Shown one piece after another: positions 3,880-23,414 of a stretch of 23,414 nt of DNA. The stretch comes from a virus. A model generated the notes under the pieces. The model saw only the letters and a list, made by a program, of their open reading frames with translations, made no database searches and was not told the origin of the DNA. Both the position numbers and the translations under genes were made by a program. The stretch covers positions 1 to 23,414 of IMG/VR virus record IMGVR_UViG_3300037486_000056. One strand, 5' to 3'. Positions within the stretch are counted from its first letter, which is position 1, and each line of letters begins with the position of its first letter.

Positions 3880-4458
3880 ATGTCTACTAGAGCCGTCCCG
3901 AAGAAGGGCCGCGCCACCCGGACTGCAAGCCTGAAGCGGCTGCGCAAGGAGTTAGATCGGCTCTGGCAGCGATACGTCGTCGAGCGTGCGGGCGGCTGGT
4001 GCGAGCTGTGCCAAGATATGGAGCCGAAGGCGGCATACTGCGGGCATCACGTCTTCACTAAGGCGTCGAGCTTAGCGACCCGATGGGATCCAGACAACGG
4101 AGTGGCAGTTTGCCATGGATGTCATATCGGATGCCACGGGTCGAGATACGCGGAGTTCTTGTCTCGCATCCAAGAACTGATCGGAATGGAACTGTGGGAT
4201 GATCTGCGGACTAGGCATCGTCGGACGGTGCGGCTGAACGCCGACACGCTGCAAGCCGCGCGCACGACGCTGCTGCAACGACCATTCCCGAATGGAGGCA
4301 GGCGTGAGTCGTTTCAAGGAAGGCGTATATTACGAGCGGGTAGGAATAGACAGACCGCTGCCGGGACGGTCTCGCGGCGTGTATCTCAGACCGCCACAAC
4401 TAGCCGACGTGTTCCGGCGCGAGCAGAAGAAGCGCCATTGGATATTGACCCAACATAG
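3880..4458 (+). CDS. NinG/Rap-like zinc HNH recombination protein
   Basis: After a 56-base gap, the ATG at 3880 follows AGAGGGG. The N-terminal 115 residues resemble lambda NinG (Rap), a recombination-associated DNA junction protein: a basic helix (residues 15-38), zinc pair C41-x2-C44, a CGHH strand (54-57), then the DNGVAVCHGCHIGCHG segment (72-87) giving a second C78-x2-C81 pair with C85 and H86, followed by a helix YAEFLSRIQELIGMELWDDL. Such proteins act with phage recombination and replication genes, matching the replication initiator just downstream. From about residue 141 the frame overlaps the next gene for 155 bases and becomes Arg/Ser/Thr-rich, unlike the family, so the true C-terminus may be shorter or the tail simply unconstrained. 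Confidence 0.75.
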   Translation: MSTRAVPKKGRATRTASLKRLRKELDRLWQRYVVERAGGWCELCQDMEPKAAYCGHHVFTKASSLATRWDPDNGVAVCHGCHIGCHGSRYAEFLSRIQELIGMELWDDLRTRHRRTVRLNADTLQAARTTLLQRPFPNGGRRESFQGRRILRAGRNRQTAAGTVSRRVSQTATTSRRVPARAEEAPLDIDPT

Positions 4459-4636: not shown

Positions 4637-5459
4637 GGGAGAGTACCGATCCGTGTACTGCGTTCTACTAGACGACGCCGGGTATCAGGCTCTAACGCCG
4701 AACGCCCGGCTGATGTTGCTGACTCTGAAGTTCACGCGCATGAACAACGCCGCAGGGATCTTCCTCTCGTACGTCGAGCCGCTTCAGCGTCAGACGGGTC
4801 TGTCATTTCCGGCAGTCCGGACGGCGCTGGAGGAGCTTGAGGCTGGAGGCTGGATTGCCCGAGAGCAGGACGTGATCTGGATCATTAACCACCTGCGGTA
4901 CGACCCGTCAAAGCCGCTGAACGATCCGAAGAAGCGGAAGTGGGTCCAGAGGGTACTGTCGGGACTCCCGTCACTCGGCGTAGTACGAGGATTCGCAGAG
5001 ACTTACGGCCTGGACGTGGACGAGCGGTGGCCCGCGTGGAATCCGAGTCCGAGGAAGCCTCCCGTGGAGCAGCAGGAGATTGAGGGCGTTGGTATTCGGA
5101 AGTCCAAGTCGGTGCCAAGGCCTAAGGCAGACGTCGGGATGCGAGCGGAGTTCGAAGCATTCTGGCTTGACTATCCGCGCCGGACTGCGAAACCTAGGGC
5201 GTGGGAGTCATGGCAGCGTAAGCGTCCACCGCTGGACGCATGCAGGGCAGCGATCAAGTGGCAGAAGGAAACCGAGCAGTGGCAGAAGGGAATCATCCCG
5301 CACCCCGCGACGTGGATCAACCAGGGGCGCTGGACGGATGAGCCTCACGGTGCGGGTGTTTCCAGGAGACTCGTGCGGGCCAAGACGAAGGCTGAGATCC
5401 TTGGCATGACCGAGGAAGAGTTGGCAGAGGTCGAGCAAAGGGGGAGACGTGATGGCTGA
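4611..5459 (+). CDS. Phage replication initiator, winged-helix (O/DnaD-like)
   Basis: ATG at 4611 lies 8 bases after GGAGG (4598-4602), preferable to the in-frame ATG at 4593. Residues about 20-95 form a winged-helix domain (LTPNARLMLLTLKFT, FPAVRTALEELEAGGWIA) as found at the N-terminus of phage replication organisers. Residues 178-245 carry the conserved C-terminal module: FEAFWLDYPRR, a Trp-containing helix (ESWQRKRP), and HPATWINQGRWTDE, a sequence seen in many phage replication-initiation and helicase-loader proteins. The family binds the phage origin and recruits host replicative helicase. No separate helicase loader is visible in the window. The stop overlaps the ParB-like gene. Confidence 0.8.
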   Translation: MSMGGLEGRGEYRSVYCVLLDDAGYQALTPNARLMLLTLKFTRMNNAAGIFLSYVEPLQRQTGLSFPAVRTALEELEAGGWIAREQDVIWIINHLRYDPSKPLNDPKKRKWVQRVLSGLPSLGVVRGFAETYGLDVDERWPAWNPSPRKPPVEQQEIEGVGIRKSKSVPRPKADVGMRAEFEAFWLDYPRRTAKPRAWESWQRKRPPLDACRAAIKWQKETEQWQKGIIPHPATWINQGRWTDEPHGAGVSRRLVRAKTKAEILGMTEEELAEVEQRGRRDG

Positions 5460-6123
5460 GACGAAGGATCTGCTCATGCCTGAACTGGTTGAGACTTCAC
5501 ATCTGAAGACACATCCGCAGAACTACCGAATCCATCCAGATGACCAACTCGATCACATCATGGCGAGTATCAAGAAGAACGGGTTATACCGCAACATCGT
5601 GATTGCCAATGATGGAACGATCCTGGCTGGACATGGTGTGGTCCTGGCGGCCAAGAAGCTCGGAATGGAAGTGATCCCCGCGATCCGCCTATCCATCGGA
5701 CCCGATGATCCCGTCGCCCTGAAGATCCTCGTCGGAGACAACGAGATCGAACACCTAGCCACACAGGATGACAGGGTACTGAGCAACTTGCTGAAGACCA
5801 TCAAGGATACGGACATCGACGGACTCCTGGGAACTGGCTACGACGAGAGGATGCTGGCTGCTCTGGCAATGGTCACGCGGCCGATGTCGGAGATCAAGGA
5901 CTTCGATGCCGCTGCTGAGTGGGTCGGCATGCCAGAGTATGACGCAGGTCCGAAGCGCATCGGACTTTCCGTGTGGTTCGAAGACGAGGAAGTCCGAATG
6001 GAGTTTATTAACAAGTTCGGCTTCAACGTCGGCATGATCCGCAAGAGCGGACATACTTGGAATACTCCGTGGCCGCAGGTAGAACTGCGGGATGATCTGA
6101 CATCACTCAAACTGGATGATTAG
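5452..6123 (+). CDS. ParB-like nuclease-domain protein
   Basis: ATG at 5452 is used (GTG three bases earlier is in frame); GGGGGAGA precedes it. Residues about 14-110 follow the ParB/Srx fold: an early HPQNYRIHPDDQ segment, IMASIKKNGLYRNIVI, then the box II motif ILAGHGVVLAAKKLG (57-71), where the usual R of GHxR is replaced by V-V, and DNEIEHLATQD. The C-terminal half (from about residue 150) is unfamiliar. Phage ParB-like domains commonly accompany DNA methyltransferases and DNA hypermodification genes rather than partition systems; no ParA is present here. The gene directly precedes four glycosyltransferase-like genes, with overlap or a few bases of spacing, so it may belong to their operon. 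Enzymatic activity is uncertain because box II is altered. Confidence 0.8.
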   Translation: MAETKDLLMPELVETSHLKTHPQNYRIHPDDQLDHIMASIKKNGLYRNIVIANDGTILAGHGVVLAAKKLGMEVIPAIRLSIGPDDPVALKILVGDNEIEHLATQDDRVLSNLLKTIKDTDIDGLLGTGYDERMLAALAMVTRPMSEIKDFDAAAEWVGMPEYDAGPKRIGLSVWFEDEEVRMEFINKFGFNVGMIRKSGHTWNTPWPQVELRDDLTSLKLDD

Positions 6124-6127
6124 GTCG

Positions 6128-7018
6128 ATGGCCAACCATCCGCGCTATACCATCTACATTCCTTCGAAGGGGCGTGCCGACAATCTCCTAACGGGGAAGT
6201 GTTTCGACAAGGCAGGAGTAGACTACAAGGTAGTAGTCGAACCGTCACAGCGAGATGCGTATGAGAATGCTGGCTATGGCGAAAAGCTCTTGATCCTTCC
6301 CAAGAATGGCATGGGTCTAGTCTACTCGCGCAACTGGATCACGGACTACTCGCGTGCGTTGGGTGAAGATCGGCATTGGCAGATCGACGATGACATAAGA
6401 GACATCTGGAGGATATATCGGGGCTTCCGCCTACGCTGTTCTGCGCGGGCGGCTTTCTCAGCAGCCGAGGACTTCGCAGACCGCTATGAGAATGTAGCCC
6501 TCCTGTCTCTGAACTCGCTGTTTTTCATCATGGTATCTCGCGGAGGACACGTCGGAAGCTCGTTCCCGCCTTTCTACCTGAACCACCGATGCTACACCTG
6601 CATCCTGTTCCTAAACTCCCTGCCGAACCGCTGGCGTCCGCCCAACAACGAGGACGCCGACATGAGCCTTCAAGTCCTAGCCGATGGCTGGTGTACCATC
6701 TTACTGAATGCCTTCCTGATCGACACCGAAGAAACGATGATGCAGAAGGGTGGGCAGACTGAGGGATTCAAGTCTGGCGCTAGGCTTGCGATGGTGCGTG
6801 CGCTAGAGCGTGCATGGCCCGGGGTGGTGACGGTCAATCGCAGGTTCGGTCATCCGCAGCATGTCATCAAGAACGCGTGGATGAAGTTTGACACTCCCCT
6901 AAAGCCAAAGGTCGGGTTTGATCTTGCTTCGCAGAAGCCTAATGAGTACGGGATGAGCCTGAAGAAGCTCAAGGACGTAAACACCAAGAGACTCAGGCAG
7001 TTATTGGGAGAGGAGTAA
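6128..7018 (+). CDS. TET-associated-glycosyltransferase-like protein (TAGT copy 1)
   Basis: This is a GT-A-type nucleotide-sugar transferase-like protein of the TAGT/GREB1-like group, which is found near TET/JBP dioxygenase genes in phages and is proposed to glycosylate modified bases. Motifs: YTIYIPSKGRADNL (residues 7-20), YKVVVEPSQRDAY (33-45), VYSRNWI (65-71), HWQIDDDI (83-90) with the metal-binding acidic triad at 87-89, and an ED-containing helix NNEDADMSLQVLADGW (173-188). It is longer than its two paralogues downstream (about 296 versus 247 and 257 residues) and has a distinct C-terminal extension rich in Lys. An ATG at 6116 overlapping the previous gene is an alternative start; 6128 aligns better with the paralogues. 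The acceptor (DNA base or other) is not known. Confidence 0.78.
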   Translation: MANHPRYTIYIPSKGRADNLLTGKCFDKAGVDYKVVVEPSQRDAYENAGYGEKLLILPKNGMGLVYSRNWITDYSRALGEDRHWQIDDDIRDIWRIYRGFRLRCSARAAFSAAEDFADRYENVALLSLNSLFFIMVSRGGHVGSSFPPFYLNHRCYTCILFLNSLPNRWRPPNNEDADMSLQVLADGWCTILLNAFLIDTEETMMQKGGQTEGFKSGARLAMVRALERAWPGVVTVNRRFGHPQHVIKNAWMKFDTPLKPKVGFDLASQKPNEYGMSLKKLKDVNTKRLRQLLGEE

Positions 7019-7021
7019 GCC

Positions 7022-7813
7022 GTGTCGGAGTTCGGCGTCGCCGTGGCGTGGGTCAATCAGTCTCAGTTGAAAGACTTCCTGGAAGCCTGGAGCATCGGCC
7101 AGGAGATTCCTCCGTGGCTGTTCCTCATTCAGGATGAGAAGCATGAGGGCGGATCCATCACGAAGAACCGAGCTATCCGTGCGGCAGTAGATTGCGGATC
7201 CGAAGTCGTCGTCGTGCTGGATGATGACTGCTATCCATCTACTCCAGGGCAGACGCTTCCAGAGTTCTGCCAACAGCACATCGAAGCTCTAAGTCCGCAG
7301 CCCGTGCGCATGTTCGAAGTGGTCACAGACCCTCCATCTCGCGGAACGCCCTACGATACGCTGGATGTCAAGATGCCCGTCGCGGCGAGCATGGGCTTCT
7401 GGACCGGCGTGGGAGACTACTGCGGACCTAGGCAGTTGGCCTTCGGAGCCACGCATCCGATGACGTTCTCGCGCAAGACGATCTTCGGAAGGTACTTCCC
7501 CCTATGCGGGATGAACTATGCGTTCCGTCCCCGTGGGTGGCACCCGTGGTTCTACTTGGTTGAGGGAGTCGGCAGGTTCGATGACATCTGGATGGGATTC
7601 CTGTGGCAGCATGAGGCGTACCGCAAGCATTACTGCTTCAACCTGGCCGGTCCAATGGTCCACCATGTCCGGCAAAGCAACGTGTGGAAGAATCTGCAAG
7701 ACGAGACCAGGATGCTCAAGGACAACGAAACCGTGTGGGCCAGCCTAGAAGCCATCACGGACAACAGTTCGTACTATGAACTCCGCGAGATGCTTCCGCG
7801 GCCACGTGCGTAG
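7022..7813 (+). CDS. Reversibly glycosylated polypeptide / UDP-arabinopyranose mutase-like (GT75)
   Basis: Starts at GTG 7022 after GAGAGGAG. The 263-residue protein matches the plant/bacterial RGP family (GT75), whose members interconvert UDP-arabinopyranose and UDP-arabinofuranose or glycosylate themselves. Family hallmarks are VVVVLDDDCYPS (62-73) with the DDD motif, a VAASMGFWTGVGDYCGPRQ region (120-138) equivalent to the conserved STAVSHGLW-YDAPTQ stretch of plant enzymes, FPLCGMNYAFR (159-169) and GRFDDIWMG (184-192). It is shorter than plant RGPs (about 350 residues), mostly by loss of the C-terminus. Inserted between TAGT copies 1 and 2 in the same operon, it may supply an activated furanose sugar to them, but the actual substrate is inferred. 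Confidence 0.75.
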   Translation: MSEFGVAVAWVNQSQLKDFLEAWSIGQEIPPWLFLIQDEKHEGGSITKNRAIRAAVDCGSEVVVVLDDDCYPSTPGQTLPEFCQQHIEALSPQPVRMFEVVTDPPSRGTPYDTLDVKMPVAASMGFWTGVGDYCGPRQLAFGATHPMTFSRKTIFGRYFPLCGMNYAFRPRGWHPWFYLVEGVGRFDDIWMGFLWQHEAYRKHYCFNLAGPMVHHVRQSNVWKNLQDETRMLKDNETVWASLEAITDNSSYYELREMLPRPRA

Positions 7814-7814
7814 C

Positions 7815-8558
7815 ATGTACCCGATATACATACCATCATGTGGAAGGGGGCCGCTACCGAAGACGGCGCAGCTATTGCGGAATGAGGAGATCCCGTTCTA
7901 TGTCGTCGTAGAGCCTAGAGAGAGAGAGTCTTATGGAGGTGTTGGGGAGGAGAGGCTATTGACGCTCCCCGAGAATCGGCAGGGGATCGCATACGTCCGC
8001 AACTGGATCAAGCGCCACTCGATAGACAACCATGATGCCTGTCACTGGCAGTTGGATGACGACGTGACGGCAATCCAGCACCGCACTACGGCAAGCCGAT
8101 CTAAGTGTAGCTTCCGGGAATGTCTGGAATCGTCCGAGCAGATCATGGAGCGGTATTCCAATCTGGCCGGAATCGGAATCCACAACGCTGCATTCATTCC
8201 CAAGAGAGCGTGGTCGTGGAACCAGCAGATCTACTCTATCGTCCTATTCAACAACGCCGTTGACGCATGGTGGCATTCGGACTGTATCGAAGACACGGAT
8301 TACTCGCTCCAATGCCTATCCCAAGACTGGTGCACTCTACTTGTGAACGAGTATGAGTTCTTCGCCCCGACGACGGGCACCAAGTCCGGTGGAACGTCCG
8401 ACACGGACTACTCACAAGATGGCCGTGTTCGAAAGATCCGAGGGCTGGCCCGCAGGTGGCCTGGGCTTGGAATCAAGGTGCATCGTGGTTTCGGTCTCCC
8501 GAAGGCAAAGACTGCACATATCTGGCGTAAGTTCGCCATACAGCCGAAGAAACGCTGA
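7815..8558 (+). CDS. TAGT-like glycosyltransferase (copy 2)
   Basis: Start chosen at ATG 7815 because the product then begins PIYIPSCGRGPLPKTA, aligned with both paralogues; an in-frame ATG at 7776 would overlap the mutase gene. The ribosome binding site is weak, so expression may rely on coupling to the stop at 7813. Motifs: FYVVVEPRERESY (28-40), IAYVRNWIKRHSI (58-70), HWQLDDDV (77-84) with the acidic triad at 81-83, CIEDTDYSLQCL, and a C-terminal TGTKSGGTSDTDYS segment. Compared with copy 1 it has a Cys in the first loop. It resembles copy 3 most closely. Acceptor and sugar donor are unknown. The stop overlaps the start of copy 3 (ATG at 8558). Confidence 0.78.
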   Translation: MYPIYIPSCGRGPLPKTAQLLRNEEIPFYVVVEPRERESYGGVGEERLLTLPENRQGIAYVRNWIKRHSIDNHDACHWQLDDDVTAIQHRTTASRSKCSFRECLESSEQIMERYSNLAGIGIHNAAFIPKRAWSWNQQIYSIVLFNNAVDAWWHSDCIEDTDYSLQCLSQDWCTLLVNEYEFFAPTTGTKSGGTSDTDYSQDGRVRKIRGLARRWPGLGIKVHRGFGLPKAKTAHIWRKFAIQPKKR

Positions 8559-9464
8559 TGTCTCTGATTCACATGGTCTACATCCCATCCTGCGGTCGCG
8601 GACCCATGCCCGATACCGCGATCTACAAGGAGTTCGTCATCGGTGCGCGAAACCTCGCGGCTTCGCGCCGGATGGGACACCCGCTCGACACCACGCACGT
8701 AGCCATCTCGACGCGGCTTGTGTCAGAAGCCGCCGAGAACCTGCTGTTCAACGCGGACCCTGGATGCCGAGGGGATACCCTGCCGAGTAGTGGTGGAGCC
8801 GCGTGACGTCGAAGCATACTCGGAAGTCGGACGGGATCGCCTGCTAGTACTTCCTGACAATCGGCGCGGCATCGCATTCTCACGAAACTGGATCAAACAG
8901 TATTCCATCGAACACGGCGAGACGAGCCACTGGCAACTAGACGACGACGTAAGGGCTTTCTGGAAGTGGGACGGCAGGAAGAAGGAGAAGTGTTCCGCCC
9001 TAGAGGCGATGCGCGTAGCTGAGAAGTGGATGTCTGAGTACGCGAATCTCGCCGCCGTCGGATACTACATGCAGTCGTTCGTGCCTAGCCGAAGGTACAA
9101 GCTGAACCAGCAAGTCTTTACGGTCGTCCTCTACAACAATGACGTAGACCTCTCCTGGAGACCCGGCTGCATCAAAGACACCGACTATTCCCTACAATGC
9201 CTTGCAGATGGATGGTGTACTGTGGTACTGCATGAATACGTGTTCGAGGTTCCCAAGACCGGAACGAAGCCGGGCGGCACGGCGGAATCTATGTATGCTG
9301 GAGACAATCGCTTGCGGAATCTGAGAGGCCTCATGCGGAACTGGCCGAGCCTGAATCTCAAGATCGAGCGAGGCTATGGTATCCCCCGCCTCCGCCTGGG
9401 ACACCTGTGGCGCAGATTCCCGGCAAGACCGATCAAGAGAGGATCTGAAAATGGCCGAGGGTAA
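8558..9464 (+). pseudogene. TAGT-like glycosyltransferase (copy 3), interrupted by capsid-gene fragment
   Basis: The 5' part (8558-8620) encodes 21 residues ending in CGRGPMPDTA, matching the start of copy 2. At 8621 it is broken by 133 bases derived from the major capsid gene, after which 8754-9464 encodes the remainder in a different frame: RTLDAEGIP, CRVVVEPRDVEAY, AFSRNWIKQYSI, HWQLDDDV and GTKPGGTAES. Because 133 is not a multiple of three, the frame is shifted; the chimeric ORF ends at 8806. Removing 8621-8753 leaves 774 bases, a continuous 257-residue protein that aligns with copy 2 without a gap. As it stands, only a restart lacking the first third, or a strain without the insert, could supply a product. 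The final 14 bases overlap the small terminase start. Confidence 0.85.
8621..8753 (+). repeat. 133-bp copy of the major capsid gene inside TAGT copy 3
   Basis: Aligns with 22015-22147 with 130 of 133 identical bases, same orientation. Differences are at 8663 (T versus G), 8700 (T versus C) and 8737 (G versus T). It covers capsid codons 124-167 plus one base and is read in the capsid frame from the upstream TAGT start. No target-site duplication or terminal inverted repeat is visible; the junctions share only one or two bases. Confidence 0.92.
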
Positions 9465-16730: not shown

Positions 16731-19313
16731 ATGGCAATCACGTTCCGCGCCACGGGTGCCGCAGCCAGCGCGAGTAGCGGCGACGTCAGCCCCGGCTTGC
16801 CCGCAGGGTGGGAAGTCGGGGATCTGCACGTCTGCGTCGTTGCCGCCAAGGACAACGTGGCATGCACGATGTCCAGCTGGACGGCCATAGACAGCGGAAC
16901 GAACAACGGAACGGGCCTGCGGTCCCACTCATTCTATCGCGTGGCGGAAGCCGGAGACGGAACCCCCACGGTTTCGCACGCCAGCGGATCGTACATCACG
17001 GCGATCATCTGCGGATTCGACGGCGTAGACCCCACGGACCCGATCAGCGTCGAGTCGGCCGTCAAGGTCAACGTGATGGACTCGCAGATCACCGCCAACG
17101 GATTGACTACGGACGATGATAACGAGTGGCTTCTGTTCGTCGGCGGGATTGCGACCAAGTGCACCATCAGCGCGTACAGCGGATCGCCTAGTCCGACCGA
17201 ACGCGCCGACTCGCCCAACACGACAAACTACCCCGAGATCTGCCTTGCATCATCCGCGATTGCCACCGGGGGAACTGTCATAGGCACGAGAACGGCCAAC
17301 GCTACGGGCATGGCGGTCAACAACGGGCACCAGTTCACGCTCAGACCGCATGTGCCTGACCCCGTTGACGTCGCAGTAGATACCGGGACGCTGACGATCA
17401 CGGCTGATGACATCACGGTCAACGTCCCGGCTGATGAGCCGGTAGAGATTCCAGTCGATACCGGCCTGCTGACGATAACTGCCGAAGACATCACGGTTAC
17501 CCTCGATGAGGCGGTCACGGTTTACTGCGACACCGCGATTATCGCGCTAACGGGCCTGGGTATCAGCGTGGACGAGGGAGTTCCACCCGAAGACGTCGAG
17601 ATTGCCGCTGACACGGCCTCGTTGAACCTGACTGCGATACCTTGCACGGTGACGCTTGGCGAGGCGATCACGTCGAACCCTATGTTCTTCGGCTTTGAGT
17701 ATGGCAACCTGGATGAGGTGTATGACCACGCGGGTGACGTGACCATCGTGGACGACGATCCCGAAGGATGCAGCGGCTGCGGGCAGTACGGCAAGCGGTA
17801 CGCGATCATCGCCGGAACTGGATCGACGAACAACTACGTCACGCTGAGAAACCTGCGCGCGGACGGCAACTGGACGACGTTCTCGCAGAATGTCATCGCC
17901 CTGAAGCTGGATATTTGGTTCGACTCTGCGGCATTCCCCGCCAACGGATACGCCGAGGAAATCGCATCCTGGTGGACCATCAATGGCGTCAAGAAGGCCG
18001 GGCTACGTGTGCGAAACACGCTTGGAAATGCAGTCTTGGACCTGTACGACTCGACCGGCACTCGGAAGGTGACTGGGGTCTACGCGCTGTCGAAGGATTC
18101 GTGGCACACGGTCGAGGTGACGATCACGAACGAGTCCACGGGGCGAGGCGACGGCGTCTACTCCATCATCGTTGACTTTGATCACAACGTCGGCTCTGGC
18201 GTGAACGGCACGTTCACCACGCAGCACGCCGCAGAGGTATCGGTCGGAAACAGGGACCGGGTGCAGAACGATCCGTGGGCGATCCGCGTGGACGACATCG
18301 TGATTGATTCCGCATCTCCCGGCGAGTCGTACGTCACGCAACTTCAGCCCGCATCCAACGGTCACTACGGGTTCTGGACCGGAGATTGGGAAAACGCCTG
18401 TGCAGTCCCCCCGGACGAGGAGGCGAGCTACATCTATTGCTCCAGTTCGTCAGACAAGTCGAATGACGAAACGTTCCTGCTTTCCGAACCTGGTCTCACG
18501 ACTTGGCGGCATACGCACACGATCATGGCGGCCAAGGCCGTCTACCGCGTCGGATGGCCCATAGACTTCGATTACGTCTCCGACTCGATGGTTTACTTCG
18601 CCGTCCAGGGATCGGAGTACGGTCCAACGCCAGAGGAAGATCGGGACTATGAGTTTGAGCAAGGCGTGTTCGCCACGAAGCAGGTGCCGTGGAAGAACAA
18701 CCCGATAGACGGTCAGCCGTGGACGGCGTTTGACCTGACGGACATCGAAATCGGCATCTCGATGGTAACGCTAGGGCACAAGGCTGCGTGCGCGGGCATG
18801 TACCTTCAGATCCTGAGCCGCATGGATCGCCTCGGTGCCGGATATACCTGCAATACCGCCGTCCTCACGGTCCAGGCCCAAGACATCGACGTTGAATCCG
18901 CCGAAGAAGGCGTGGTCATCTGTGATACGGCGCACATCACCGTCCAGGCTAATCCCGTCGAGGTAGTCTGCGAAGCCATCGTGATCCCGCTAGACACGGC
19001 CATCTCCACCGTCACGGGACTTCCGATAGTGGTTTCGACTGCCCCGCCAGTAGCCGTACACCTTGCCACGGGGCACGTCACGGTAGAGCGGATCCAGGCC
19101 ACGTTCGTGCCTGGAGTGACGCACATACGCCTTGACACGGCGCGCGTTAGGTTCCAGCGTATGCACGCGTCCATCGTCGGGGGCACCGAGACGCCGGAGT
19201 GGACGGACGAACGCATGGTCACGGTGGGTCGGGAGAGCAGGACGGCCTCTGTGTCTGCGGAGTCGCGTACGTCAACGGTTCCGAAGCCGGAAGCGGACGA
19301 GGAAGGATCGTAG
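16731..19313 (+). CDS. Large virion protein: beta domain, 24-residue repeats and LamG-like domain (860 aa)
   Basis: N-terminal residues 1-205 form a beta-sandwich module common in phage fibre/structural proteins (FRATGAAASASSGDVSPGLP, LPAGWEVGDLHVCVVAAKD). Residues 211-312 hold four copies of a roughly 24-residue repeat with the core DTxxLTITAxDITV. Residues about 318-545 look like a LamG/concanavalin-type domain (FFGFEYGNLDEVYDHAGDV, a DNDP-like acidic loop with CSGCG, long strands), then a second domain to about 705. Residues 707-817 hold five more repeats, and the last 40 residues are Thr/Ser/Glu-rich and probably disordered. LamG-type domains bind carbohydrates, so a surface-exposed or receptor-binding role is likely. 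The protein lies among capsid genes, before scaffold and major capsid, so head-fibre is an alternative to tail-fibre. GTAGCGCGGC before the ATG is a weak binding site, so coupling to the upstream gene is likely. Confidence 0.78.
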   Translation: MAITFRATGAAASASSGDVSPGLPAGWEVGDLHVCVVAAKDNVACTMSSWTAIDSGTNNGTGLRSHSFYRVAEAGDGTPTVSHASGSYITAIICGFDGVDPTDPISVESAVKVNVMDSQITANGLTTDDDNEWLLFVGGIATKCTISAYSGSPSPTERADSPNTTNYPEICLASSAIATGGTVIGTRTANATGMAVNNGHQFTLRPHVPDPVDVAVDTGTLTITADDITVNVPADEPVEIPVDTGLLTITAEDITVTLDEAVTVYCDTAIIALTGLGISVDEGVPPEDVEIAADTASLNLTAIPCTVTLGEAITSNPMFFGFEYGNLDEVYDHAGDVTIVDDDPEGCSGCGQYGKRYAIIAGTGSTNNYVTLRNLRADGNWTTFSQNVIALKLDIWFDSAAFPANGYAEEIASWWTINGVKKAGLRVRNTLGNAVLDLYDSTGTRKVTGVYALSKDSWHTVEVTITNESTGRGDGVYSIIVDFDHNVGSGVNGTFTTQHAAEVSVGNRDRVQNDPWAIRVDDIVIDSASPGESYVTQLQPASNGHYGFWTGDWENACAVPPDEEASYIYCSSSSDKSNDETFLLSEPGLTTWRHTHTIMAAKAVYRVGWPIDFDYVSDSMVYFAVQGSEYGPTPEEDRDYEFEQGVFATKQVPWKNNPIDGQPWTAFDLTDIEIGISMVTLGHKAACAGMYLQILSRMDRLGAGYTCNTAVLTVQAQDIDVESAEEGVVICDTAHITVQANPVEVVCEAIVIPLDTAISTVTGLPIVVSTAPPVAVHLATGHVTVERIQATFVPGVTHIRLDTARVRFQRMHASIVGGTETPEWTDERMVTVGRESRTASVSAESRTSTVPKPEADEEGS
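17361..17666 (+). repeat. Four-copy protein repeat block (residues 211-312)
   Basis: Codes for four copies of a 23-26 residue unit with core pattern V-x3-DT-x2-L-T-ITA-xDI-TV. Consecutive copies start at about residues 211, 238, 262 and 289. The copies have diverged in sequence while keeping the pattern, so this is an old protein repeat rather than a recent DNA duplication. Confidence 0.75.
18849..19181 (+). repeat. Five-copy protein repeat block (residues 707-817)
   Basis: Codes for five further units of the same pattern (for example CNTAVLTVQAQDIDV, CDTAHITVQANPVEV, LDTAISTVTGLPIVV, LATGHVTVERIQATF, LDTARVRFQRMHASI). They are on the other side of the LamG-like core from the first block. 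Confidence 0.75.
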
Positions 19314-21645: not shown

Positions 21646-22650
21646 ATGGCCGACGCTCTTGCGAATGTCTCCGTTGAGACGATGATCGGAGGGGAAACCT
21701 CCGGTCCGGTCCTCCAGAGACTTCTGGCGAACAACATGAACCCCGATTGCCTGCGCGACAATACCGTGCTGCGCGACCGGGACTGGATGGAGATGGATTC
21801 CGTCGTGGTCCCGATTGCCAAGCGGCGCATGCGTGGCATCGGAGACCTGATCACGCGTGGACTCACGTACAACCTGACTGACGCCATGGGAACGCCAGTC
21901 CTCGCGTACGAGCAGGAATCCGATATGGACGCCGCGACGATTTCGATGGAAGCGCGCGAGGAAGGGTACAACGACCGGGCGACCTACACGCCCGCGTACC
22001 TGCCGATCCCCTTGATCTACAAGGAGTTCGTCATCGGTGCGCGAAACCTCGCGGCTGCGCGCCGGATGGGACACCCGCTCGACACCACGCACGCAGCCAT
22101 CTCGACGCGGCTTGTGTCAGAAGCCGCCGATAACCTGCTGTTCAACGGGTCCGGCACGTTCGTCTTCAACACGAAGGCGCTTCAGGGCTACACGAACCTG
22201 ACCGGCCGAAACACCTACACGTCGATGACGGCGTGGACGGCTACTGCCAAGACTGCTGCCCTACGCTTCGCGGACATCATGGAGATGAAGTCCACGCTCC
22301 AGGGCGACCGCATGTGGGGTCCGTACGCTGTGTACGTCCCGCAGGCGTACGAGCGTTATCTGGACGAGGACTACTCGACCTACACCGGCCAGACCCTGCG
22401 GCAGCGCATTCTATCGGTGGAAGGAATCGAGGTCGTGGCGGGATCGGACTGGCTGGCCACTGGGAGCATCCTGATGGTCAACCTTCAGCCCGAGACGACT
22501 CGGATGGTCGTGGGCTTCCAGCCCCGGCTCGTTTCCTGGGACAGCCCGAGCGGGATGGCCGCGCACTTCCGGTGCATGGCGATCATGGTCCCGCAGTTGA
22601 GGCTGGACAAGGACGGCCGGAGCGGAATCGCTCACTGGTCGACTTCGTAG
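21646..22650 (+). CDS. Major capsid protein, HK97-fold (encapsulin-like group)
   Basis: GAAGGGAGAAAGGACAG precedes the ATG at 21646. The 334-residue protein shows features of the phage capsid group related to encapsulins: an N-terminal arm (ANVSVETMIGGETSGPVLQR), the P-domain segment with IPLIYKEFVIGARNLAAARR (122-141) and ISTRLVSEAADNLLFNGSG, and a C-terminal region with YAVYVPQAYERYLDEDY, LSVEGIEVVAGSDWLATGS and LRLDKDGRSGIAHW. There is no obvious N-terminal delta domain, so scaffolding is probably provided by the DUF2213 protein. Codons 124-167 are duplicated in the third TAGT gene. A strong hairpin follows the stop. Confidence 0.87.
   Translation: MADALANVSVETMIGGETSGPVLQRLLANNMNPDCLRDNTVLRDRDWMEMDSVVVPIAKRRMRGIGDLITRGLTYNLTDAMGTPVLAYEQESDMDAATISMEAREEGYNDRATYTPAYLPIPLIYKEFVIGARNLAAARRMGHPLDTTHAAISTRLVSEAADNLLFNGSGTFVFNTKALQGYTNLTGRNTYTSMTAWTATAKTAALRFADIMEMKSTLQGDRMWGPYAVYVPQAYERYLDEDYSTYTGQTLRQRILSVEGIEVVAGSDWLATGSILMVNLQPETTRMVVGFQPRLVSWDSPSGMAAHFRCMAIMVPQLRLDKDGRSGIAHWSTS
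22015..22147 (+). repeat. Capsid-gene source of the 133-bp duplicated fragment
   Basis: This part of the capsid gene (codons 124-167) is 130/133 identical to 8621-8753. It is the intact, in-context copy, so it is taken as the source and the upstream copy as the insert. Confidence 0.9.
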
Positions 22651-22749: not shown

Positions 22750-23073
22750 ATGGATGGCAAGAACACGTACCGCTTCAAGCGCGAAGCGGGCAAGCACTTC
22801 CTCCCTGGCGGTTCCCACCTTGGTCCTGGCGACATCATCGTCGCGTACGAGTACGAGGTCGAGTCCATCATTGACAAGCTGGATCTCGTTGAGAGCGGAG
22901 AACCCGAGGACGACATCGCTCCGCTGACGATCCGTGCTAGGGGACGCGGATGGTTCGACGTCATTCACCGAGACACGAACGAGCCAATCAATCACGCCGC
23001 CTTGCGACTGGCGGAAGCCATCGCGTTAGCTGGCGGTGACGAACACCTACGCATACCGGGGGTCGAGGAATGA
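22750..23073 (+). CDS. Hypothetical late protein after capsid (107 aa)
   Basis: ATG at 22750 follows GATGGGGG. The N-terminal part has strands and a basic stretch (YRFKREAGKHFLPGGSHLGP), then GDIIVAYEYEVESIIDKLD, a pattern seen in small proteins between capsid and head-completion genes, followed by LTIRARGRGWFDVIHRDT (a strand-rich core) and a C-terminal helix. Its position suggests a head-tail connector or capsid-associated function, but no family is recognised. The stop overlaps the next start (ATGA). Confidence 0.65.
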   Translation: MDGKNTYRFKREAGKHFLPGGSHLGPGDIIVAYEYEVESIIDKLDLVESGEPEDDIAPLTIRARGRGWFDVIHRDTNEPINHAALRLAEAIALAGGDEHLRIPGVEE

Positions 23074-23414
23074 GTGCTTGGACCGTTCCGCAGATATGGC
23101 CCGGAGAGGACGCCTTCATCATCGGAGGCGGTCCCAGCCTGAAGGGCGTGGACGTCACGCCGCTTATTGGGAAGAACGTCATTGCCGTGAACGATGCGTT
23201 CAGGCTTGGCCCTTGGCCGTTCGTATTCGCATGCGATGGAAGGTGGGGGAATAACCGCAGGGAACTGCTACGCGAGTTCGGTGGCGCGCGAGTCATCTGT
23301 CCAAGCGTGGCATCGTATCCCAAGTTCGAACGCAATCCGATGTTCCTCGCTCTGAAGCGCACGCACCGTGGACCATACATCAGTCGGACACCGGATACGC
23401 TGCGCTGGCACAAC
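23070..23414 (+). CDS. MptE-like/DUF115 protein, 3' end cut by window
   Basis: ATG at 23070 overlaps the previous TGA. The visible 115 residues show the Rossmann-like start of the MptE-like (DUF115) group found in many phages: GEDAFIIGGGPSLKGVDV, then LIGKNVIAVNDAFRLGPWPF with a VNDA motif and VFACDGRWG. Cellular MptE is a 6-hydroxymethylpterin pyrophosphokinase, while phage members have no proven role and are often placed among late genes. The gene continues past the end of the window. Confidence 0.72.
   Translation, partial: MSAWTVPQIWPGEDAFIIGGGPSLKGVDVTPLIGKNVIAVNDAFRLGPWPFVFACDGRWGNNRRELLREFGGARVICPSVASYPKFERNPMFLALKRTHRGPYISRTPDTLRWHN

Follow-up and report, generated by a model that had tools for sequence, protein, structure and literature searches.

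Interruption of a phage TAGT glycosyltransferase gene by a fragment of the major capsid gene

The window analyzed here, an uncultivated phage record of 23,414 bases (IMG/VR record IMGVR_UViG_3300037486_000056) taken whole and probably representing a genome fragment, carries a 133-nt piece of a major capsid gene inside its third TAGT glycosyltransferase gene. It appears probable that this is a real insertion, derived from a capsid allele other than the resident one, which broke the third TAGT gene without homology, a reading that draws on one uncultivated contig. Such an insertion is unusual in detail but ordinary in kind. If real, it exemplifies how a patch copied from another gene can break a phage gene without homology, with both the donor sequence and the empty site still readable, and how a redundant DNA-glycosylation cassette can lose the function of one member. 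If it is an artefact, it serves as a warning on the interpretation of such joints in single metagenomic contigs.

The Duplicated Capsid Segment

The two copies of the segment lie 13.4 kb apart in the window, within the following features:

21646-22650, + strand: resident major capsid gene, HK97 fold, encapsulin-like (PF19774/PF04454, PHROGs, AF2 model, Foldseek), containing the duplicated segment 22015-22147
8621-8753, + strand: inserted capsid-gene fragment, 133 nt (130/133 identity to 22015-22147)

The match, which had been noticed in a preliminary description of this DNA, was reproduced: 130 of 133 bases are identical, in the same orientation, with mismatches at insert positions 43, 80, and 117. 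Counting one shared G, the repeat comprises 8620-8753 and 22014-22147 (134 nt, E = 8.9e-61); the insert ends are ambiguous by 1 nt, 8620-8752 being an equivalent placement. The capsid assignment is based on the PF19774 and PF04454 profiles and on a Foldseek match to the encapsulin EncA (E 1.6e-20). In the capsid frame, the insert corresponds to residues 124-167 plus one base, which in the modelled protein form a strand (124-131) and two helices (132-141 and 148-167), including the long spine helix.

No other long repeat is present in the window, the runner-up being a direct repeat of 46 bp (83% identity, copies 78 bp apart, 17374-17497) inside an 860-aa protein encoded at 16731-19313. In 1.07 Mb of fetched loci, a weak baseline given that most of these loci are shorter than 13.4 kb, a single further non-tandem repeat reached 60 bp with at least 90% identity, and it lies at a contig end. 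This repeat, a 132-bp direct repeat in locus L012 (97% identity, 1-131 and 1074-1205, one copy at the contig end), is AT-rich and apparently non-coding and was judged unrelated. A second capsid piece was found in none of 50 related records, and the insertion is therefore not a property of the family.

The Interrupted Glycosyltransferase Gene

The recipient belongs to a cassette with the following members:

6116-7018, + strand: TAGT copy 1, intact (PF20691, E 8e-34)
7022-7813, + strand: RGP-like glycosyltransferase (PF03214, E 7.8e-8)
7776-8558, + strand: TAGT copy 2, intact (shares 48% identity with copy 3 over the latter's 3' part)
8558-8620, + strand: third TAGT gene (copy 3), 5' part, 21 codons with the YIPSCGRG motif (translation; gap-free alignment with copy 2 from residue 14 onward)
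8754-9464, + strand: third TAGT gene, 3' part, out of frame with its own start (frame still open; HWQLDDD motif; Pfam PF20691 profile positions 31-204)

The assignment of the recipient is based on PF20691 and on phrog_842 (beta-glucosyl-HMC-alpha-glucosyltransferase). It adjoins the RGP-like transferase, whose gene also adjoins TAGT in locus L004 and several other loci. The PF20691 scores are 117.8 bits for copy 1, 87.2 for copy 2, and 89.2 for the 3' part of copy 3 (Pfam cut-off 27.5). The listed ORF of copy 2 starts within the RGP-like gene, but translation of copy 2 probably begins with the Met at residue 14. A cassette of a ParB-like protein, TAGT copies, and an RGP-like transferase occupies 5449-9464 of the window and also 7289-11233 of L004. 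No TET/JBP oxygenase was found among the window ORFs scanned.

The two parts of copy 3 share one frame and together comprise 257 codons plus a stop, with no gap relative to copy 2 across the site. This confirms the preliminary description, in which excision was said to restore a 257-residue TAGT protein aligning with copy 2 without a gap, and the 133-base insert to shift the frame and break the protein. Since the insert length is not a multiple of three, the third TAGT gene is broken: the YIPS..GR strand and the HWQ.DDD core, which an intact enzyme would have in one frame, are separated at 8620/8754. The best reading is that the insertion broke one redundant DNA-hypermodification glycosyltransferase, leaving two intact TAGT copies and the RGP-like transferase. 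The 3' part of copy 3 retains an open frame and the family motifs, which suggests that the damage, and with it the insertion, may be recent.

The interruption also creates an ORF that the preliminary description had missed:

8558-8806, + strand: 82-aa chimeric ORF, with 21 aa of TAGT, 44 aa of capsid, and 17 frame-shifted aa (ORF list; capsid matches)

Translation from the TAGT ATG enters the insert in the capsid frame, and the ORF stops at 8806. It is probably not functional. It is conceivable, though very improbable, that the insert is of use to the phage, either as a fusion that hampers the capsid assembly of competitors or by allowing the 3' part to restart as a shorter enzyme. The capsid segment does lie in frame with the TAGT start and covers the strand and both helices named above; however, in-frame entry has a chance of 1 in 3, the fusion has a frame-shifted tail, and the arrangement is absent from relatives (50 related records). 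A restarted 3' part would be devoid of the N-terminal strand and the YIPS motif, and its nearest starts are TTG at 8718 (in the insert) and GTG at 8790 and 8793.

Junctions and Insertion Site

When TAGT copy 2 was compared with copies in other viral contigs, 99 of 116 alignments were gap-free between the YIPS and VVE motifs. The spacing over the insertion point is thus conserved, which implies that no recipient bases were lost and that no target duplication was formed. At the junctions, donor and recipient share 1 nt on the left and 2 nt on the right, while 55% of random position pairs in the window share none, 28% share one, and 11% share two (45% share at least one). Neither junction therefore has homology beyond chance, as is the case in double illegitimate recombination, and microhomology-mediated joining was rejected on the same grounds. 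These measurements agree with the earlier statements that only one or two bases are shared at the junctions and that target-site duplication and terminal repeats are missing; a duplication would alter the conserved spacing.

Transfer of the capsid piece by a mobile or diversity-generating element (DGR) is the least probable of the explanations considered. A separate gene at 3880-4458 matches NinG/HNH nucleases and could make breaks, but terminal repeats, target duplication, and element genes are all missing, and independent capsid pieces were found in none of the 50 records of relatives. With regard to a DGR, the differences between the two copies are G/T and C/T rather than adenine-directed, and no reverse transcriptase was found among the ORFs scanned. 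Transposon, DGR, and target-duplication readings were accordingly rejected.

One further feature, also missed in the preliminary description, was recognized at the site:

8616-8756, no strand: empty-site palindrome CCGC/GCGG, split by the insert (4-bp arm centred at the alternative, 1-nt shifted, insertion point)

Within the 1-nt ambiguity, the insertion point is the centre of CCGCGCGG, an 8-bp palindrome, and such centres make up 0.14% of window positions. Both the palindrome and a GATC at the left end of the donor were spotted post hoc; they are a lead only and are not counted as evidence.

The main rival to a real insertion is a library, amplification, or assembly chimera, in which one chimeric molecule, or chimeric reads at low coverage, would have placed capsid DNA of a co-occurring strain in the TAGT gene, so that the sequence would correspond to no existing phage genome. 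The preliminary description had left the choice between non-homologous recombination and a chimera; the present results support non-homologous insertion, and a chimera appears unlikely, if still a serious candidate. The record is a metagenomic fragment of 23,414 bases, the joints are free of homology and hence of any biological signature, the insert length is near that of a short read, and the inserted allele differs from the resident one, as would a piece from another strain in the sample. On the other hand, the recipient sequence resumes without skipping or repeating a base, in frame and at the spacing of the family, which is unexpected from two independent joins, and k-mer assemblers would be expected to mis-join via shared k-mers, whereas these junctions share one or two bases. 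The uninterrupted gene had been proposed as something to seek in related phages. Exact and degenerate scans of IMG/VR returned no uninterrupted third TAGT gene, no donor allele, and no close capsid relative, and no relative with the same joint was found, which counts against a real insertion. Pattern matches in loci L170 and L171 from these scans were attributed to chance. In addition, no relative of the record was found in the species-genome collection, nor in the phage collection at the DNA level.

Origin of the Inserted Allele

From the resident gene to the insert, the differences are A138S, A150V, and D162E. As already pointed out in the preliminary description, each alters an amino acid; zero of three are synonymous. 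Ser occupies residue 138 in 73 of 74 distinct relatives (Gly in the other), and Glu occupies residue 162, likewise in 73 (Asp in the other), while residue 150 is Ala in 53 and Val in five. The insert thus has the family-typical Ser138 and Glu162, and it is the resident gene, with Ala138 and Asp162, that deviates, a point that had escaped earlier notice. Such use of family-conserved residues as a test of which copy is derived is reusable.

Only 4 of the 396 possible single changes in the resident segment give the family residue at a deviating 95%-conserved site, and the probability that at least two of three random changes restore it is 3.0e-4. The insert therefore did not arise by drift from the resident gene in its present form, and the earlier suggestion of drift after copying was rejected. 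The other suggestion, that the donor carried a capsid allele slightly different from the resident one, agrees better with these residues, but they are also compatible with a resident gene that changed once the copy had been made, or with two copies mis-phased in assembly. Judged from these residues, the source would be either another allele (from a co-infecting relative), an ancestor predating the two resident changes, or a mis-phased assembly.

With mis-phasing, the insertion would be real and followed by neutral drift, the insert being truly Ala138/Val150/Asp162 and the resident gene Ser138/Ala150/Glu162, swapped by small-k assembly. The resident gene would then match the family at all three sites, and all of the changes, whose uniformly non-synonymous character has a neutral expectation of P = 0.40, would fall in the unconstrained copy. 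It would also account for the confinement of the resident departures from 95%-conserved positions (codons 125, 138, and 162) to the duplicated segment (3/7, compared with 0/21 elsewhere; hypergeometric P = 0.011). However, the two copies share an atypical Tyr125, and part of what is unusual in the resident segment is therefore genuine; the exchange would have to affect two of the three sites and spare the third; and, as the longest common exact block is about 43 bases, assembly with a larger k would phase the copies correctly. Mis-phasing is considered improbable.

The preferred reading, a real insertion from another allele, has its own difficulty here: the absence of synonymous changes among the three differences is unusual for two functional alleles. 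A doubtful extension of it is that the insert is a sequence fossil of a capsid allele and that the resident gene has since changed at the near-universal positions 138 and 162, which would indicate recent adaptive change in the spine region. A fusion peptide that interferes with the capsids of competitors is a more distant possibility than this.

Possible Mechanism and Precedents

Under a real insertion, the 133-bp capsid piece would most likely have been taken up where the third TAGT gene had a break or a stalled fork or, alternatively, introduced when the template was switched twice at a fork, in a pool of replicating phage. Both ends would have been joined without meaningful homology, with nothing lost from the recipient and no target-site duplication. 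The donor allele, with Ser138, Val150, and Glu162, may have belonged to a close relative in a co-infection, or else to an ancestor of this phage in which Ala138 and Asp162 had not yet arisen. Loss of the enzyme could have been tolerated through the remaining related transferases, or even favoured by a host defence that recognizes the sugar. The window encodes, at 3880-4458, a NinG/Rap-like HNH junction endonuclease (phrog_5034) as a possible source of breaks.

Several known systems are comparable. Double illegitimate recombination without homology is described, according to a passage of PMC4437187 that cites Hulter and Wackernagel 2008; as presented there, it likewise involves a segment joined at two ends without homology, but it is known from natural transformation of Acinetobacter baylyi, whereas the present case concerns a phage and a fragment that stems from its own genome or from that of a close relative. 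It was also reported that, when T4 rejoins breaks made by Cas, the products carry deletions, substitutions, or small insertions (PMC8262927). Both cases involve a phage break rejoined with a change in a nonessential gene, and short insertions do occur in T4; however, its products are mostly deletions at minihomologies formed via UvsX, while the window has a 133-bp ectopic insert with neither deletion nor minihomology, a difference that counts against the preferred reading.

With regard to the loss of a glycosyltransferase, selection by Brig1 leads to inactivation of the T4 alpha-GT, which the phage survives owing to a second GT (PMC13216743). Losing one glucosyltransferase can thus be borne as long as another is present, and is of advantage against a glycosylase defence. 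One glucosyltransferase is lost and another retained, as would be the case here, but Brig1 escapers have point changes rather than insertions, and the TAGT enzymes form a family of GT-A fold that has no relation to T4 alpha-GT. Novel joints without homology in phage genomes are also a feature of illegitimate recombination in phage mosaicism (PMC2327257); that literature deals with module exchange between phages, in contrast to the short, intragenic, and destructive insertion in the window.

Two other features of the window were observed. Positions 960-1922 encode a phage-borne sigma-54 activator-like AAA+ protein with a Fis-type HTH (PF00158, E 8.5e-65), and an ORF at 23070-23414, open at the contig end, is weakly similar to a phage sialyltransferase family (phrog_4603).
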